This document shows, piece by piece, positions 11,961-33,262 of a stretch of 33,462 nucleotides of DNA (its first letter is position 1; each line of letters begins with the position of its first letter). The translations under genes were made by a program, and so were the position numbers. The notes beneath the pieces are model-generated. The model was not told the DNA's origin and searched no databases. It saw nothing but the letters and a program-made list of their open reading frames with translations. The stretch is taken from the NCBI GenBank assembly GCA_017483225.1, contig JAFULF010000032.1:1-33462 (forward strand), written 5' to 3'. The DNA is from Alistipes sp. Its GTDB lineage: Bacteria; Bacteroidota; Bacteroidia; Bacteroidales; Rikenellaceae.

Positions 11961-12551
11961 ATGTTGTTAAAGGAACACTTAAATGGCTATCGCCTGATTC
12001 TTGCCTCGGCATCGCCTCGCCGTCGTCAGCTGCTTGCCGACTGCGATTTGGCATTCGAGGTGGCCCCGAAATTTGAGTGCGAAGAGTCGTTCCCGAAGAG
12101 TATGCCGAGTGATGAGGTCGCAGAGTATCTGTCGGGCGTGAAGAGCGATGCCTACCCGCAACCGTTAAACCCCAACGAGGTGCTTATCACGGCCGATACG
12201 GTTGTTATAGTGGATGACGAGATTCTCGGCAAGCCCTCCGATGCTGCGGAGGCCTGCGCTATGCTCGAAAAGTTGTCGGGTCGCTCTCATAAGGTTGTTA
12301 CGGGGGTTACCTTGCGCTCCTGCGACAGACGTTGCTCCTTCTCGGTGGAGAGTAGGGTGCAGTTCCGAGCCTTGAAGCGTGAGGAGATAGAGTACTATAT
12401 CAACGAGTACCGCCCCTTTGACAAAGCGGGGGCATACGGCATCCAAGAGTGGATAGGATGCGTCGCCATTGAGGGTATCGAGGGGTCGTTCTATAATGTT
12501 ATGGGGCTACCGATTCAGCGGCTGTATGTAGAGTTGGAACGCTTTGTATAA
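11961..12551 (+). CDS. maf: Maf-family nucleotide pyrophosphatase
   Basis: This 196-residue Maf/YhdE-type house-cleaning enzyme hydrolyses non-canonical or dTTP/UTP-like nucleotides. It shows the N-terminal LILASASPRRRQLL motif and the catalytic ADTVVIVDDEILGKPSD block. LEKLSGRSHKVVTGV and the C-terminal DKAGAYGIQEW...GSFYNVMGLP complete the signature. It is cytoplasmic. It is last in the lpxB operon, 3 bp after the FAH-like gene, and ends at the bidirectional terminator. Confidence 0.93.
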   Translation: MLLKEHLNGYRLILASASPRRRQLLADCDLAFEVAPKFECEESFPKSMPSDEVAEYLSGVKSDAYPQPLNPNEVLITADTVVIVDDEILGKPSDAAEACAMLEKLSGRSHKVVTGVTLRSCDRRCSFSVESRVQFRALKREEIEYYINEYRPFDKAGAYGIQEWIGCVAIEGIEGSFYNVMGLPIQRLYVELERFV

Positions 12552-12589
12552 AACGAATAAGCATCTCATTTCGAGATGCTTATTCGTTT
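12551..12589. terminator. bidirectional terminator between maf and the response regulator gene
   Basis: A perfect 17-bp inverted repeat (12551-12567 with 12573-12589) has a 5-nt loop, with AT-rich tails on both sides. The last base of the maf stop codon and the last bases of the leftward response-regulator gene fall inside the stem. Confidence 0.85.
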
Positions 12590-13367
12590 ATATGCTCTGC
12601 TCTCCGCTTTCGAGCCACGTGAGGAAGTCGGAGGTCTTGGAGCGACTGACAAAGGAGTCAATGCCGCTCGATGGTTTGAGCGTCAATTTGATTCGGTTGC
12701 CCAACCTCTTGGCTATGTTTCCGATGCTGCGGTCGGAGACGATGCAGCTACGTGAGATGCGGAAGAAGTGCGCCGGGTCGAGTTCCTTGCTTATCACATC
12801 CAGCGAGGAGTCCATCAGGTACCGCTCGCCACTTGCCGTCATAAGGTATGTGCACCCCTCCTCCGAGTAGAAATAGGCAATCTGCGAGGTCTCGACCATC
12901 ACAATCTTGTCGTTATATCGTAGCAGGTAACGCTGCTTGTAGCGACCAATTCCCCCCCCCGATTTTATTGCAGGTTTTGATTGTAGTGCGCTGTCTGTGT
13001 TTGCGTTATGCGTTTGCCTCCTGCAACGCTCAATGGCACGTTGCAGGTCTTTGAACTCTACGGGTTTCAGGATATAGTCGAGGGAGTTTACCTCGAAGGC
13101 CTTGATGGCGTAATTGTCGTAGGCGGTAACCATAATTACCGGACAATGGATGCTGATACGCTCGAAGATGTCGAAACACTTGCCGTCGGAGAGCTCCACA
13201 TCCATAAAGATAAGGTCGGGGTAAATCTCCGTATTGGAGAGCCACTCGACACTCTTGCTGACGCTGTCCAAGGTTGCGCAGATGGATATCTCCGGGAAGT
13301 TGTTCTTCAACATTCTCACCATTGCCTGTTGTGCAACAATCTCGTCTTCAATGATTAGTGCGTTCAT
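12588..13367 (-). CDS. LytTR-family response regulator
   Basis: This 259-residue protein has a receiver domain (residues 1-120) with acidic pocket E7/D8, phospho-acceptor D56 (IFMDVEL), VTAYDNYA and K102 (LDYILKPVE). A linker follows, then a C-terminal LytTR DNA-binding domain (about 150-255) with YFYSEEGCTYL, FFRISRSCIV and the GNRIKLTLKP strand. The linker is encoded partly by nine consecutive G residues (12952-12960 on the plus strand as C). It is the second gene of a leftward operon, 42 bp after its sensor kinase. LytTR regulators bind direct repeats as dimers; their targets here are not evident. Confidence 0.92.
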   Translation of the reverse strand: MNALIIEDEIVAQQAMVRMLKNNFPEISICATLDSVSKSVEWLSNTEIYPDLIFMDVELSDGKCFDIFERISIHCPVIMVTAYDNYAIKAFEVNSLDYILKPVEFKDLQRAIERCRRQTHNANTDSALQSKPAIKSGGGIGRYKQRYLLRYNDKIVMVETSQIAYFYSEEGCTYLMTASGERYLMDSSLDVISKELDPAHFFRISRSCIVSDRSIGNIAKRLGNRIKLTLKPSSGIDSFVSRSKTSDFLTWLESGEQSI

Positions 13368-16354: not shown

Positions 16355-20445
<4,091 letters not shown>

Positions 20446-20490
20446 TATGGTTAGTTAGGAAGATGGGGTAGGATTTTTTCATTAGTGGGG

Positions 20491-20516
20491 AGAGGGTCGT
20501 CGCAAGATGACCCTCT
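20491..20516 (+). terminator. terminator of the starch operon
   Basis: AGAGGGTC (20491-20498) pairs with GACCCTCT (20509-20516), an 8-bp stem with a 10-nt loop, followed by a run of T. Confidence 0.8.
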
Positions 20517-20580
20517 TTTTGTTGGGATAAGGCGGGATGATGAATTTTGTTCAAAGATTATATTTATATACCAAATTTAG

Positions 20581-20609
20581 TTGTTGAGTCAGAGATTTTA
20601 TTAACTTTG
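20581..20609 (+). promoter_or_regulatory. promoter of the cas12f-like gene
   Basis: TTG (20581-20583), an 18-bp spacer and TAACTTTG (20602-20609) form a promoter. The predicted start near 20616 leaves a leader of only about 13 nt before the ATG. The gene therefore appears independently transcribed in its host. Confidence 0.7.
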
Positions 20610-20628
20610 TGAACTAAATGTTGGAAAT

Positions 20629-22095
20629 ATGGCAACAGAATATACCTGTATAACTCGCAAAATTGAGGTGCATCTTCACAAGCACGGCGATACTGAGGAG
20701 GCTGCACAACGATTAAAGGATGAATACCATATATGGGACAATATCAATGATAACCTCTATAAGGCTGCAAACCGTATTGTTTCGCACTGCTTCTTTAACG
20801 ATGCTTATGAGTATCGCCTAAAAATACATTCGCCAGAATTTAGGCAGATTGAGAAATCACTACAACATGCCAAGAAAAACAAATTGTCAGAAGATGATAT
20901 CAAAAAGTTGAAAGCCGAGCGCAAATCCCTATGTGCTGATTTCAGAGAACAACGATTAGCATTTCTGCGTGGCGGTGCAACGGAAGGGGCAAACCCGGAG
21001 CAAAATTCGACATACCAAGTTGTCTCGCACGAGTTTTTAGATGTGATTCCATCGGATATTCTGACGTGCCTAAATCAGAATATTGCGAGTGTTTATAAAC
21101 AATATGCATTAGAGGTTGAGATGGGTAAACGAACCATTCCAAACTTCAAGAAGGGTATTCCTGTGCCATTTGCAATAAAGCAAAATAAACAGTTAAGATT
21201 GAGAAAACGCAATGATGGCTCTGTATATGTACTTCTCCCCAGGGAATTGGAGTGGGATTTAAGTTTCGGACGTGATAGAAGCAATAACCGAGAAATTGTA
21301 GAGAGAGTTTTGAGCGGACAATACGATGTTGGTAACTCTTCTATCCAAGAAACCAGAAGCGGCAAGAGATTTTTGTTATTAGTTGTTAAGATTCCTAAGG
21401 CGAGTAGAACCTTGGATACTAAGAAAGTTGTTGGTGTTGATTTAGGCATTGCAACCCCATTGTATGCTGCTCTTAACGATAACGAATATGGAGGGTTAAG
21501 CATCGGCTCACAGGAGCAGTTTCTAAAAATTCGTATGCGTATGACAGCGCAGAAACGTGAATTGCAACGCAATCTTCGTTACACGACCAATGGTGGTCAT
21601 GGGCGTACACAAAAGTTGCAAGCACTGGAACGTTTAGAAGGTAAAGAGCGAAATTGGGTGCATTTGCAAAATCATATATTCAGTAAATCTATTATAGAAT
21701 ATGCCCTGAAAAATAATGCAGGTGTTATTCAAATGGAACGATTGACAGGATTTGGTCATGATAAAAATGATGAAGTTGGGACTGAGTATAAGTTTATCTT
21801 GCGTTATTGGTCATTCTTTGAGTTACAATCAATGATCGAATATAAAGCAAAGGCAGCAGGTATCGAGGTTAGATACATCAACCCTTACCATACCAGCCAA
21901 ACTTGTAGTTTTTGCGGAAAATACGAGAAGGGACAACGCATCAATCAAGCAACCTTCGTTTGCAAAAATCCTGACTGCGTAAAAGGTAAGGGTAGGCAGA
22001 AGTCGGATGGCACGTATGAGGGCATCAACGCAGATTGGAATGCAGCAAGAAATATAGCATTAAGCGAAGAATTTGTAGATAAAAAGAAAAAATAG
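20629..22095 (+). CDS. cas12f: Cas12f-like (type V-F / V-U) miniature CRISPR effector nuclease
   Basis: This 488-residue protein has a helical N-terminal half (1-185) and a wedge/RuvC half. RuvC residues are intact: D271 (VVGVDLG), E370 (IQMERL) and D469 (NADWNAARN). A four-Cys zinc finger lies before RuvC-III (C426, C429, C445, C450). The block from VERVLSGQYD through VVKIPK, then GGHGRTQKL and INPYHTSQTCSFCG, follows Cas12f1 order and wording (compare MNGDY, RAGHGAKNKL and TSKTCSKCG in Un1Cas12f1). Known Cas12f enzymes dimerise on one crRNA-tracrRNA and cut double-stranded DNA beside a T-rich PAM. A repeat-spacer array lies 213 bp downstream on the same strand. The gene is clearly more AT-rich than its neighbours. 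The alternative, a TnpB of an IS200/IS605 element, is less likely given the array and the absence of tnpA. Confidence 0.87.
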   Translation: MATEYTCITRKIEVHLHKHGDTEEAAQRLKDEYHIWDNINDNLYKAANRIVSHCFFNDAYEYRLKIHSPEFRQIEKSLQHAKKNKLSEDDIKKLKAERKSLCADFREQRLAFLRGGATEGANPEQNSTYQVVSHEFLDVIPSDILTCLNQNIASVYKQYALEVEMGKRTIPNFKKGIPVPFAIKQNKQLRLRKRNDGSVYVLLPRELEWDLSFGRDRSNNREIVERVLSGQYDVGNSSIQETRSGKRFLLLVVKIPKASRTLDTKKVVGVDLGIATPLYAALNDNEYGGLSIGSQEQFLKIRMRMTAQKRELQRNLRYTTNGGHGRTQKLQALERLEGKERNWVHLQNHIFSKSIIEYALKNNAGVIQMERLTGFGHDKNDEVGTEYKFILRYWSFFELQSMIEYKAKAAGIEVRYINPYHTSQTCSFCGKYEKGQRINQATFVCKNPDCVKGKGRQKSDGTYEGINADWNAARNIALSEEFVDKKKK

Positions 22096-22105
22096 CGTAT
22101 CTTTG
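22072..22105 (+). promoter_or_regulatory. promoter of the candidate tracrRNA / array transcript
   Basis: TATCTTTG (22098-22105) is an exact -7 motif just 2 bp after the cas12f-like stop codon. TTTG at 22072-22075 lies 22 bp upstream as a possible -33 element inside the gene's last codons. Transcription would start near 22112, ahead of purely non-coding sequence. Confidence 0.65.
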
Positions 22106-22111
22106 TACAAG

Positions 22112-22308
22112 AAACATATTTGTTCTTTGATATTTTTAGATATGGATTTCAATTCCCATTTTGGGAATGGGCGTGTTGGAACGCCTTAGTTTGAGGTTTG
22201 AACTTAAAAAGTGGAGTAAATGGAGATTTACAATACTTTCAAGCACTCAAAAAATTCACTTAATTTTTGTGATATATCGTTGGAATTCATTATATTCCAA
22301 TTTACACA
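22112..22308 (+). ncRNA. candidate tracrRNA
   Basis: This non-coding stretch lies between the effector gene and the first repeat, where known Cas12f loci encode their tracrRNA. Two adjacent hairpins are visible. ATTCCCA/TGGGAAT (22152-22158 with 22162-22168) has a TTT loop, and GGCGT/ACGCC (22170-22174 with 22181-22185) has a 6-nt loop. Downstream, ATTCACTTAA (22254-22263) is perfectly complementary to positions 19-28 of the repeats. Repeat 1 differs there by one A-to-G change that would still pair as G-U. A third hairpin, TTGGAAT/ATTCCAA (22280-22300), precedes repeat 1. The ends are inferred; the RNA could continue into the array as one transcript. Confidence 0.65.
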
Positions 22309-22541
22309 GTGTTGTAACTGTGATATTTAGGTGAATATCCAACCGACACGCCAAGCTATCCAATCTCCACCTCAGTGTTGTAACTGTGATATTTAAGTGA
22401 ATATCCAACCGACACGCCAAGCTATCCAATCTCCACCTCAGTGTTGTAACTGTGATATTTAAGTGAATATCCAACCCAGCGTACAACAGGCGGATTGAAG
22501 CCTTGGGTGTTGAAATATCAGTATCTGAGTGTATATCAAAC
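22309..22541 (+). CRISPR. mini CRISPR array, 4 repeats / 3 spacers
   Basis: The 35-bp repeats start GTGTTGTAAC and end ATCCAAC, at 22309-22343, 22375-22409, 22441-22475 and 22507-22541. The period is exactly 66 bp. Repeats 2 and 3 are identical and repeat 1 differs by one base. Repeat 4 keeps the ends but matches only 24 of 35 positions, as expected of a leader-distal terminal repeat. Spacers are 31 bp: 22344-22374 and 22410-22440 are identical to each other, and 22476-22506 differs. If the shared CA before repeats 1-3 is counted, the repeat is 37 bp. The CAAC 3' end and the degenerate last copy both orient the array rightward, like the effector. Confidence 0.85.
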
Positions 22542-22557
22542 ATCGATGATTTTTTTT
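22541..22557 (+). terminator. possible terminator of the array transcript
   Basis: A short palindrome (CATCGATG) is followed at once by eight T residues (22550-22557), directly after the degenerate last repeat. The stem is weak, so this is tentative. Confidence 0.35.
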
Positions 22558-22612
22558 GTTGCGTGAGTTTCAGTGTCGAGAAGGGGCGGTGCTGCTTGTT
22601 CTTGGCGCAATG

Positions 22613-22779
22613 ATAAGGTCGAGTAAGGTCACGCACCCTGCGGGTGCTTTAAGGTCGGGCGTAAAGGGAGCGCACAAGGTTAAGGGCTATTAAGGGAGTT
22701 AAGGGATATTAAGGGTTGTTAATGGTGCGCAAGAGGTTGCGGACTTGTACAGCCTTGCCATAAACTGCCTGCGCTCCCA
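22613..22779. repeat. dispersed non-coding repeat, copy 2
   Basis: This is the second copy of the element at 1562-1905. Block A (22613-22656) is essentially identical over 44 bp. Block B (22663-22779) is closely similar, including AGGGAGTTAAGGGATATTAA and the GGACTTGTACAGCCTTGCCA stretch. The 180-bp middle part of copy 1 is missing. Like copy 1 it sits 3' of a tRNA and its terminator. The gap 22558-22865 contains no gene that I can support. Confidence 0.8.
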
Positions 22780-22865
22780 TTAATTTTTTACATCCCCACC
22801 GGAATTTTACAGTGAGCCCCAATAAGCCCCATATTTTCACTTTCTTTTCAAGAGGACAAAAAAAT

Positions 22866-22891
22866 AACGACCTACATTTCTGTAAGTCGTT
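22866..22891 (-). terminator. intrinsic terminator after tRNA-Asp
   Basis: AACGAC-c-TACA (22866-22876) pairs with TGTA-a-GTCGTT (22881-22891) around a 4-nt loop. On the minus strand it is followed by a T run. It ends 11 bp from the tRNA 3' end. Confidence 0.8.
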
Positions 22892-22902
22892 GATTTTTAG
22901 TG

Positions 22903-22976
22903 CGGTGCGTAGGGGACTCGAACCCCTGACCCCGTGCGTGACAGGCACGTATTCTAACCAGCTGAACTAACGCACC
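22903..22976 (-). tRNA. tRNA-Asp (GUC)
   Basis: This is a 74-nt cloverleaf. The acceptor is GGTGCGT/ACGCACC. The anticodon stem CGTGC/GCACG encloses loop CTGTCAC, giving anticodon GTC. The T-arm is AGGGG/CCCCT with TTCGAGT loop. The discriminator is G, the known tRNA-Asp identity base, and CCA is not encoded. Confidence 0.96.
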
Positions 22977-23021
22977 AGAACCTGTTGCTCTCAGGCCCTC
23001 CATTGTTCCTGATTGCGAGTG

Positions 23022-23051
23022 CAAAGATAGGGCAAATTTTACATTCTGCAA
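23022..23051 (-). promoter_or_regulatory. promoter of tRNA-Asp
   Basis: The minus strand carries TATCTTTG (23022-23029) and TTG (23049-23051) with a 19-bp spacer. Confidence 0.75.
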
Positions 23052-23092
23052 ACTTTTGAGCAACTTTTTTACATTTTTTTTGCAATTTTTTT

Positions 23093-23626
23093 TCACTTGC
23101 GGAAGAACGAGAATTGCACGCTTCCGTAACTTCTTAATTGCCAAAAGTATTCGTGTTTGGAGAAGTCGTACTTGTCCGAGTGCTCAAAGATGAAGATTCC
23201 ATCCTCTCGCAGCACGTTGCCGCCCAAAACCAACTCCACAATCTGCTCCAACCCCTCCAAGTCGTATGGCGCATCCGAGAAGACTATGTCGAAAGACTTG
23301 GGGCAGGCACGCAGGTAGAGGAAGGCGTTTGCCTTCACCGCATAGATGTTCGATGCATCGAGGGCCTTGGCGGTCTGTCGGATGAAGTTGTGGTGCACGG
23401 CGTTTATCTCCACGGAGGTCACGCTGCGGGCTCCTCGTGAGGCGAACTCGTAGGTTATGGAGCCGGTGCCGGAGAAGAGGTCGAGCACGTCGCACTCCTC
23501 AAACTCCACAAGGTTGCCGAGCACGTTGAAGAGATTCTCCTTGGCGAAGTCCGTCGTGGGGCGGGCTCGCAGGTTCTTCGGAGGCGTGATGCTGCGACCA
23601 CGGTATTTGCCACTTATTATGCGCAT
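23093..23626 (-). CDS. rsmD: 16S rRNA (guanine(966)-N2)-methyltransferase RsmD
   Basis: This 177-residue enzyme begins MRIISGKYRGRSI, the RsmD signature, followed by RPTTDFAKENLFNVL. The SAM loop is LDLFSGTGSITYEFASRGA (about 48-66) with acidic SVEIN. The catalytic motif IV, normally DPPY/F, reads DAPY here (118-121). RsmD methylates G966 in 16S rRNA of the small subunit. It is last in a three-gene leftward operon, 2 bp after the DUF3822 gene. Confidence 0.92.
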   Translation of the reverse strand: MRIISGKYRGRSITPPKNLRARPTTDFAKENLFNVLGNLVEFEECDVLDLFSGTGSITYEFASRGARSVTSVEINAVHHNFIRQTAKALDASNIYAVKANAFLYLRACPKSFDIVFSDAPYDLEGLEQIVELVLGGNVLREDGIFIFEHSDKYDFSKHEYFWQLRSYGSVQFSFFRK

Positions 23627-24886: not shown

Positions 24887-26305
24887 ATGGAAAGTGCCAT
24901 TATTGCGACCCAAATTTACGCAAAATTATCGTTCCAGCCAACTATAAATCAAAAAAAAATCATCGAAAGTCTTTCGAATTATATTTCGGATGGAGATTTC
25001 TCGAAGATTTTCATCCTCAATGGTTACGCAGGAACGGGAAAAACCACGCTCATATCCGCTTTTGTGGCGGCCCTCAAAGAGTTGGGGCGACGTAGCATAC
25101 TGCTGGCACCTACGGGGCGTGCGGCGAAGGTGCTCTCCCGATACTCGGGGGAGAAGGCGCTGACAATCCATAAGCAGATATACCGAGAGAAGACCAACGC
25201 TGCCTACGAGTCGAAGTTCTCACTCGATATAAACCGAAATAAGGGGGCGGTGTTTATTGTGGATGAGGTTTCGATGCTCTCGGCGGGCGGAGGCTTCGAG
25301 CAGAATATCTTTGGCAGTGGCTCGTTGCTTGACGACTTGGTGCGTTATGTGCGCAGCGGTACGGAGTGCCGTCTGATACTTGTCGGGGATGGTGCGCAGT
25401 TGCCTCCCGTGGGGGAGGATTACTCGCCGGCACTCAACGCCGATGAGATGTTGCAGTATGGCGAGGTGGTCTATGAGCTGATGGATGAGGTGGTGCGTCA
25501 GGAGCAGTCGTCGGGCATCCTCTTTAACGCTACGATGGTAAGGTGTATGTTGGAGTGCAATATTATAGAGGTGCCTCGTTTCGAGATGGGCTTCGAGGAT
25601 GTGCAGGCGGTGCAGGGCGGCGAGTTCTTGGAACTGTTGCAGGATTGCTATGACCGCTATGGCAAGGATGAAACCATCGTCATCACTCGCTCCAACAAGC
25701 GGGCAAATCGCTATAATGAGGGTATCCGTCGCAATGTGCTCTTTGCTGACGAGGAGTTGGAGAGTGGCGATATGCTTATGGTTGTCAAGAATAACTACTT
25801 CTATACGGAGCAGGTAGAGAATTGCCCGATGAGTTTTATAGCCAACGGAGATACGGCCCGCTTGGAGCGACTGCGCCGAGAGGAGGAGTTGTATGGTTTC
25901 CGCTTTGCTACGGCGGTGCTCTCGTTTGGGGATTACGACGATACGGAGATTGAGTGCAAGATACTCCTCGATACGCTTGCCTCCGAGTCGCCGTCGCTGA
26001 CTCGGGAGGAGAGCCAACGGCTCTTCTACGAGGTAGAGCAGGATTATACGGATGTGGCAAGTAAGATAAAGAGATTCAAGCAGATACGTGAGAATCCATA
26101 CTTCAACGCCTTGCAGATAAAGTTCTCCTACGCCGTGACTTGTCATAAGGCGCAGGGCGGTCAGTGGAAGGCCGTATTTATAGATAGATGTCTGTTTGGT
26201 GACGAGCCTATGTCACGGGATATGTTACGCTGGCTATATACGGCGATAACACGTGCGACGGAGCGGCTCTACTTTGTCAATTTTGATGAAAGATTTTTCG
26301 AGTAG
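24887..26305 (+). CDS. RecD-like superfamily 1B DNA helicase
   Basis: This 472-residue AAA_30/UvrD_C_2 helicase has Walker A GYAGTGKTTL (46-55) and motif Ia LAPTGRAAKVLSRY. Walker B is IVDEVSML and motif III VGDGAQLPPVG. The C-terminal motif V/VI part includes SYAVTCHKAQGGQWK and LRWLYTAITRATERLYFVN. There is no RecB or RecC partner, and the short N-terminus distinguishes it from RecD2. It should be a 5'-3' ATP-dependent helicase in repair or replication restart. Bacteroidetes genomes commonly carry such a stand-alone gene. It lies 80 bp upstream of mutS. Confidence 0.88.
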   Translation: MESAIIATQIYAKLSFQPTINQKKIIESLSNYISDGDFSKIFILNGYAGTGKTTLISAFVAALKELGRRSILLAPTGRAAKVLSRYSGEKALTIHKQIYREKTNAAYESKFSLDINRNKGAVFIVDEVSMLSAGGGFEQNIFGSGSLLDDLVRYVRSGTECRLILVGDGAQLPPVGEDYSPALNADEMLQYGEVVYELMDEVVRQEQSSGILFNATMVRCMLECNIIEVPRFEMGFEDVQAVQGGEFLELLQDCYDRYGKDETIVITRSNKRANRYNEGIRRNVLFADEELESGDMLMVVKNNYFYTEQVENCPMSFIANGDTARLERLRREEELYGFRFATAVLSFGDYDDTEIECKILLDTLASESPSLTREESQRLFYEVEQDYTDVASKIKRFKQIRENPYFNALQIKFSYAVTCHKAQGGQWKAVFIDRCLFGDEPMSRDMLRWLYTAITRATERLYFVNFDERFFE

Positions 26306-32807: not shown

Positions 32808-33206
32808 GGGGGTGACCGGTTTTGACAGCAGGCAGAGTCGGATTGTAAGCACGTCGAGCATTGTGTGGGGTCTCGTAAATCGCAACACTCAAACTACAAA
32901 TGGCAATAATAGCTACGCACTCGCTGCCTAATTTTCAAGGAAAATGGGCTTAATCAACGGGTTCAAGGAAATCCGATGACGAGTATCCCGGACGGACATT
33001 CCGCTCTTTAATGGCTGTCTATATGGGGTATCATCAATTAAGAGATAGTGCGATATGTGCCTCGGTTATCGTGCGAAATTAAGGGGCTGGGATTCGGGTT
33101 TGGCTGTCGCCTGCCGTGCTCGGATAGAAGGATTAAATGGCGACTAAACGTGTAGAAAGCCTTCGGGCTCCTTGTTTGGACGCGGGTTCGACTCCCGCCA
33201 CCTCCA
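32808..33206 (+). ncRNA. ssrA: transfer-messenger RNA
   Basis: This 399-nt tmRNA rescues stalled ribosomes. The tRNA-like ends are GGGGGTG at the 5' side pairing with CACCTCC at the 3' side, with GACCGGTTTTGACAG and the T-arm GCGGGTTCGACTCCCGC. The tag frame reads GNNSYALAA and stops at TAA (about 32902-32931); the exact resume codon is uncertain by one or two codons. The YALAA ending is the usual ClpXP-type degron. CCA is not encoded. It is one-piece, not permuted. Confidence 0.95.
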
Positions 33207-33262
33207 CTTTTAGCAGAAAAAGACACTATTAACGAGTGTCTTTTTTCTTTTTCTGCTAAAAG
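33207..33262 (+). terminator. tmRNA terminator with extended inverted repeat
   Basis: The core hairpin AAAAAGACACT (33217-33227) pairs with AGTGTCTTTTT (33235-33245) around a 7-nt loop. An outer arm CTTTTAGCAGAAAAA (33207-33221) is complementary to TTTTTCTGCTAAAAG at 33248-33262, so alternative pairings exist. T-rich tails follow. Confidence 0.75.

Follow-up and report, generated by a model that had tools for sequence, protein, structure and literature searches.

It was found that a 33,462-nt stretch of Alistipes sp. DNA (hereafter the window) very likely carries a type V-F CRISPR-Cas locus that is complete, stands alone, and belongs to the Al3Cas12f lineage. The interval 20581-22557 covers the whole cassette. 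The effector gene cas12f (20629-22095, plus strand) encodes a protein of 488 amino acids, a length within the range of 400-700 residues given for compact Cas12f proteins (PMC13186708). The original prediction had described a RuvC triad and a CxxC/CxxxxC zinc finger in this protein. Both were located at the residues named there, with D271, E370, and D469 in a split RuvC domain and C426, C429, C445, and C450 in a C-terminal zinc ribbon. Residues 8-486 are matched by two PADLOC models, Cas12u3 (E 8.7e-101) and Cas12f (E 2.7e-97). The proposed assignment to a Cas12f effector in a stand-alone locus of a Bacteroidales genome is borne out. The protein was compared with its counterparts in a set of 11 loci, consisting of the window, L004, L006, and eight genomes designated by G numbers. 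The triad and the zinc cysteines are invariant in all 12 sequences when Al3Cas12f is added. A promoter-like TAnnTTTG box (TAACTTTG) lies upstream of cas12f at 20602-20609 (plus strand). Ten of the 11 loci have such a box in the 50 nt preceding the gene, the exception being G153. I take this box to be the Bacteroidota -7 element.

A search of the PDB returned 9NZO/9NZR first, with an E value of about 6e-267, while the next match had 2e-59. These two entries are Al3Cas12f, a nuclease from Alistipes sp. described in a 2026 paper (PMC13186708), and Al3Cas12f is apparently the same protein as Cas12f-MG119-28. The identity is 78.1% across 488 residues without a gap, and the identities of the loci to Al3Cas12f range from 64 to 84%. 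The two proteins have in common the length, the triad, the zinc ribbon, the length of the N-terminal half, and a tracrRNA and array adjacent to the gene. They differ at about one residue in five, including C102 instead of F102, and the window has its own repeat and spacers. The host of Al3Cas12f is a different sequence record from that of the window, and no exact match was seen. Judged from the sequence, the window protein is a new ortholog near Al3Cas12f, of a kind already described, and the earlier suggestion of a possibly divergent branch is not supported, given this ungapped identity. That suggestion had drawn on the lack of an N-terminal zinc finger like that of Un1Cas12f1. The lack fits the lineage, because Al3Cas12f is described as having REC and WED domains and a nuclease lobe with RuvC and the zinc finger (PMC13186708). 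In a check on the amino acid sequence alone for the extended REC helices of the Al3Cas12f clade (50-60 additional residues), the N-terminal half was aligned with that of Al3Cas12f without a gap.

Other solved relatives are less similar. The nearest are 8HR5 (E 2e-59) and RhCas12f (PDB 9NZP; E 4e-49), whose RuvC and zinc-ribbon halves align with the window protein, while the matches begin only at residues 147 and 163, respectively. The entry 8HR5 is titled 'Transposase' and is presumably CnCas12f1. The resemblance to Un1Cas12f1 seen in the original prediction is right in so far as the RuvC core is shared. However, Un1Cas12f1/Cas14a1 (PDB 7L48 and 7C7L) is a distant relative, matching residues 212-433 only, with an E value of 3.9e-23 against 5.7e-267 for Al3Cas12f.

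Changes of R49, Y60, R63, F102, and F112 lower the activity of Al3Cas12f, in which F102 contacts the non-target strand (PMC13186708). The window protein keeps four of these five residues, while F102 is replaced by Cys. Over the 12 sequences, R63 and F112 are conserved in all, Y60 in 11, and R49 in 10. Residue 102 is Phe in seven and Asp in three of the other loci. Thus, the activity of the window protein could differ from that of Al3Cas12f.

A structured non-coding gap had been predicted between the gene and the array, and this is supported both by folding and by covariation. A second promoter-like box (TATCTTTG, 22098-22105, plus strand) begins 3 nt past the cas12f stop codon, and its TTTG is invariant in all 11 loci. 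The region that begins at the putative transcript start and includes repeat 1 (22112-22343, 232 nt) folds with a z score of -5.1, and none of 200 shuffles was as stable. In the consensus fold, the putative tracrRNA body (22155-22251, plus strand), assigned from this fold and its pair counts, has stems at 22155-22166 and 22169-22186, followed by a long stem of 22190-22202 with 22238-22251 enclosing inner helices. The anti-repeat ATTCACTTAA follows at 22254-22263 (plus strand). It can form a covarying 10-bp helix with 22327-22336 in repeat 1, for which 94.5% of the cells in the 11-locus alignment are paired and two-sided changes occur at three pairs. A further hairpin (22279-22301, plus strand; helix 7, 93.2% of cells paired) stands between the anti-repeat and the array.

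The consensus fold of the 11-locus alignment has 52 pairs, 22 of which show two-sided changes, against a shuffle mean of 10.2; none of 500 shuffles was as high, in a control that leaves the relatedness of the sequences in (G153 and G149 are nearly identical copies). When the structure was held fixed, the share of paired cells was 93.7%, compared with 85.4% in the shuffles, and for none of the five measures did any of the 500 shuffles reach the observed value. When the partners were slid by one column, pairing fell to 53.6% or 49.2%, a comparison in which the true register has an advantage, as the consensus structure was derived from the tested alignment itself. An Rfam scan of 20000-23100 gave no match at the tracrRNA. 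Besides the tRNA itself, the scan gave two sub-threshold matches, one at 22081-22133 (minus strand) and one over the tRNA, which were taken as chance. The tracrRNA motif, with up to three mismatches, occurs in the same 9 of 200 family genomes as the cas12f gene.

The array lies on the same strand and has the predicted 35-nt repeats and 31-nt spacers, giving a spacing of 66 nt. It consists of three good repeats (22309-22343, 22375-22409, and 22441-22475), of which the first is identical to the other two at 34 of 35 positions, and a degenerate terminal repeat (22507-22541), which is identical at 24 of 35 positions, against 20 of 35 at the next best site of the window. Spacer 2 (22410-22440) is identical to spacer 1 (22344-22374), and spacer 3 (22476-22506) differs from them. 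An array and a separate tracrRNA stand beside cas12f in all 11 loci. The spacers of the 11 loci comprise 39 distinct sequences among 40, and none is common to two loci.

Is the protein a TnpB rather than a Cas12f? Its NCBIfam label is guided_TnpB (E 2.9e-44), Pfam assigns it a TNB domain common to both families (Cas12f1-like_TNB, E 2.5e-14), and OrfB_IS605 matches below its cut-off. These matches would suit a TnpB of the IS605 type whose omega RNA lies beside repeats by chance, serving a transposon and not immunity. The guided_TnpB label is explained by shared ancestry, since the RuvC and TNB domains of IS200/IS605 TnpB and the window protein descend from a common ancestor. In contrast to an omega RNA with a transposon end, however, the window has a separate tracrRNA with a covarying anti-repeat and an array, as do all of the loci compared. 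The promoter-like box of this RNA starts past the stop codon and the array lies at the far end of the cassette, so that neither an omega RNA nor a transposon end, as the original prediction had considered for the TnpB case, was seen over the 3′ end of the gene. The Cas12f models and Al3Cas12f match the protein at full length. A tree of the RuvC region (292 columns, few references) was rooted on TnpB proteins. It omits TnpB_G452 (under the score cut), G455 (internal stop), and the further guided-TnpB profile matches L082 and L086-L089, and its Glu column is poorly aligned in the TnpB rows. A split with a support of 100 has the window protein, the other loci, Al3Cas12f, CnCas12f1, RhCas12f, and three dead Cas12f-like proteins on one side, and AsCas12f together with seven TnpB proteins of Bacteroidales on the other. 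Placement inside the TnpB clades, the other outcome considered in the original prediction, was thus not obtained with these few references. The node uniting the 11 loci and Al3Cas12f has a support of 78 and most inner nodes are weak, while the grouping of AsCas12f with the Cas12f side has a support of only 64. Taken with the neighbouring genes described below, a TnpB serving a transposon is very improbable.

The three dead Cas12f-like proteins were found in two other Bacteroidales genomes, twice in G504 and once in G263 (L016, 1492-2580, minus strand; L018; L017, 1222-2358, plus strand). Their RuvC acidic residues are replaced and the zinc ribbon is missing. L016, which adjoins a TraG/TraD-type conjugation gene, matches PDB 9N9C, 'nuclease-deactivated Cas12f', with an E value of 2.5e-76, and the second G504 copy, L018, has internal stops within the match. 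I presume, from the PDB names, that these proteins belong to the named nuclease-deactivated Cas12f.

The existence of relatives in the same order with lost catalytic residues raises the idea that the window protein is a regulator like the natural nuclease-dead Cas12f of Bacteroidota, and not a defence nuclease. The 9N9C protein is shorter (365 residues) and matches residues 124-414 of the window protein with an E value of 5.4e-38. Unlike these relatives, the window protein has an intact triad, in positions that are invariant in the 12 sequences, and Al3Cas12f, with 78% identity, cuts DNA. A purely regulatory role is therefore hardly to be expected. The cas12f nuclease gene is intact and under purifying selection: in 10 comparisons, pN was 0.127-0.232 while pS was 0.755-0.894. 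As the synonymous sites are saturated, these values give no dN/dS and purifying selection alone can be stated.

The locus is probably functional, to judge from these features. It is somewhat unlikely, but conceivable, that the locus is complete and dormant, with a preserved nuclease, an array that takes up no spacers, and little immunity. The array is short, its first two spacers are identical, and its terminal repeat is degenerate. A search for Cas1 (PF01867) found none in the genome of the window. With three good repeats, a duplicated spacer, and no Cas1 found, the uptake of new spacers at the locus may have ceased. The two distinct spacers of the window gave no target by exact 20-mers against viral contigs or by blastn against phages and plasmids, and 24-mers with up to three mismatches matched only the array itself in 200 family genomes. 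Thus, immunity gets no support from a native target. On the other hand, purifying selection on the protein and covariation of the RNA speak against dormancy, and short arrays are the rule in this group, since each of the 11 loci has two to six good repeats.

Target searches covered four of the 39 distinct spacers, namely the two of the window and two from relatives (G131_2 and G189_3). By eye, G131_2 shows reverse-transcriptase YVDD-like wording in one frame; its exact 20-mers gave no match in viral contigs, and one phage match covered 18 nt (E 0.8). G189_3 (spacer 3 of L020 in G189) resembles a tRNA. It matches 65 phage records, 22 of them over at least 80% of the spacer, and the ten matches listed are weak (86-87% identity to tRNA-Gly or tRNA-Ala genes, E 0.2). 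Exact 24-mers of G189_3 gave no match in viral contigs. In five carrier genomes, with up to three mismatches allowed, its own genome matched at the array alone, while two of the four others hold a match with two or three mismatches on another contig.

As predicted, no cas1, cas2, or cas4 was found in the window: 26 other proteins, excluding small ORFs and 12544-12870, matched no Cas1, Cas2, or Cas4 model of PADLOC. Other PADLOC models were matched among them, mostly for generic domains. The absence is not unusual, because only 'some' Cas12f loci are described as having adaptation genes (PMC7229846). Among nine carrier genomes tested for Cas1 (85-96% complete; those of L004 and L006 are not among them), only G153 has it, on another contig, and eight lack it. 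The spacers differ between species, though eight of the nine tested carriers have no Cas1.

How widespread is this locus? The cas12f gene was found in 9 of 200 genomes of the same family, including that of the window. In a survey of the order, 3 of 393 genomes matched; one is that of the window, and the other two encode shorter proteins with only 32-38% identity. A set of named species gave three loci, each in a metagenome-assembled genome (Alistipes sp., a Rikenellaceae bacterium, and a Muribaculaceae bacterium). By its length and coordinates, the Rikenellaceae contig is that of G130, and its locus was counted once. G130 belongs to the genus of the window, in support of the placement in Bacteroidales. 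With the guided-TnpB profile, 2 of 61 family genomes matched at E 1e-15, the genome of the window holding this protein alone, and 9 of 295 order genomes, again including that of the window, matched at E 1e-20. A protein search in viral contigs found no relative of the 488-residue protein.

The cassette of the window is flanked by a GH97 glycosidase gene upstream and by tRNA-Asp and an rsmD-like methyltransferase gene downstream. Four relatives that lack the tracrRNA motif (G142, G146, G165, and G198) keep the GH97 and tRNA-Asp flanks, with other genes filling about 3.4-13.2 kb in between. Compared with the window by blastn, their similarity breaks off at 20444-20446 and begins again at 22894-22902. 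Since the gap (20446-22894) holds different genes in the four relatives, it is a variable spot. At 22679-22725, ahead of tRNA-Asp, units resembling GTTAAGGG/ATTAAGGG form a short tandem repeat, and similar wording was seen by eye downstream of the L005 array. An AAA/PIF1-RecD-like helicase is encoded at 24887-26305 (plus strand); it matches the phage-defence candidate PDC-M16A of PADLOC (E 2.1e-114) and, more weakly, RecD-like models. This helicase may simply be conserved, because G131 has an ortholog in the same place. A tmRNA gene with the tag peptide GNNSYALAA lies at 32808-33207.

In most of the 11 loci, the cassette of about 1.9 kb stands among different neighbours, a feature that would also suit the TnpB case. 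The neighbours differ even for the closest pair of proteins, G153 and G149 (91% identical). By blastp of the fetched stretches, G131 has the right side of the window and the left side of L004, while G153 has one distant match in common with the window. G100 and G149 share two left-side genes, about 4.7 and 1.8 kb away in opposite orientation. The remaining neighbours at the 11 loci are unmatched. Short flanks were fetched for L004 (right), G189 (left), and G149 (right), where sharing could be missed. A Pfam scan of 20 neighbours (four of the window and 16 at nine other loci) found no transposase, only housekeeping or metabolic and unnamed proteins, and no transposon ends common to the loci were seen by eye; both results argue against a TnpB element. 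Also by eye, the sequence similarity among the loci appears to start some 30 nt upstream of the start codon and to end in the last repeat. These results suggest that the cassette has spread as a unit, with homologous recombination and rearrangement as alternatives.

By analogy with Al3Cas12f, which is an obligate dimer guided by a tracrRNA and a crRNA, recognizes a T-rich PAM, and cuts both strands (PMC13186708), the window protein would dimerise and bind a dual guide. The tracrRNA of about 200 nt would be transcribed from the promoter at the end of the cas12f gene, at a presumed start, and its anti-repeat would pair with the 3′ part of the crRNA repeat. The complex may then seek a match to the first 20 or so nucleotides of the spacer adjacent to a T-rich 5′ PAM, where the RuvC site would cut both strands. 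Invading DNA would thus be destroyed, in a putative defensive role in the native cell.

With this locus, a compact editor that is described as highly active, and with which human cells have been edited (PMC13186708), gains a natural ortholog of 78% identity. The 11 loci give a guide-RNA model supported by covariation, and the natural variation of residue 102 (Phe, Cys, or Asp) invites comparison with the mutant in the paper. The locus also raises the question of how spacers enter stand-alone Cas12f arrays that lack Cas1, and how such arrays spread. One rather doubtful answer, made slightly more likely by the housekeeping and metabolic neighbours and the lack of a transposase among those scanned, is that the cassette, from the promoter box to the terminal repeat, moves between genomic sites as a sharply bounded unit without its own transposase, and that its array is rewritten between species though most of the tested carriers lack Cas1. 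If this is true, a transposon-derived CRISPR effector would have kept or regained mobility, and would borrow an adaptation machine or dispense with it.
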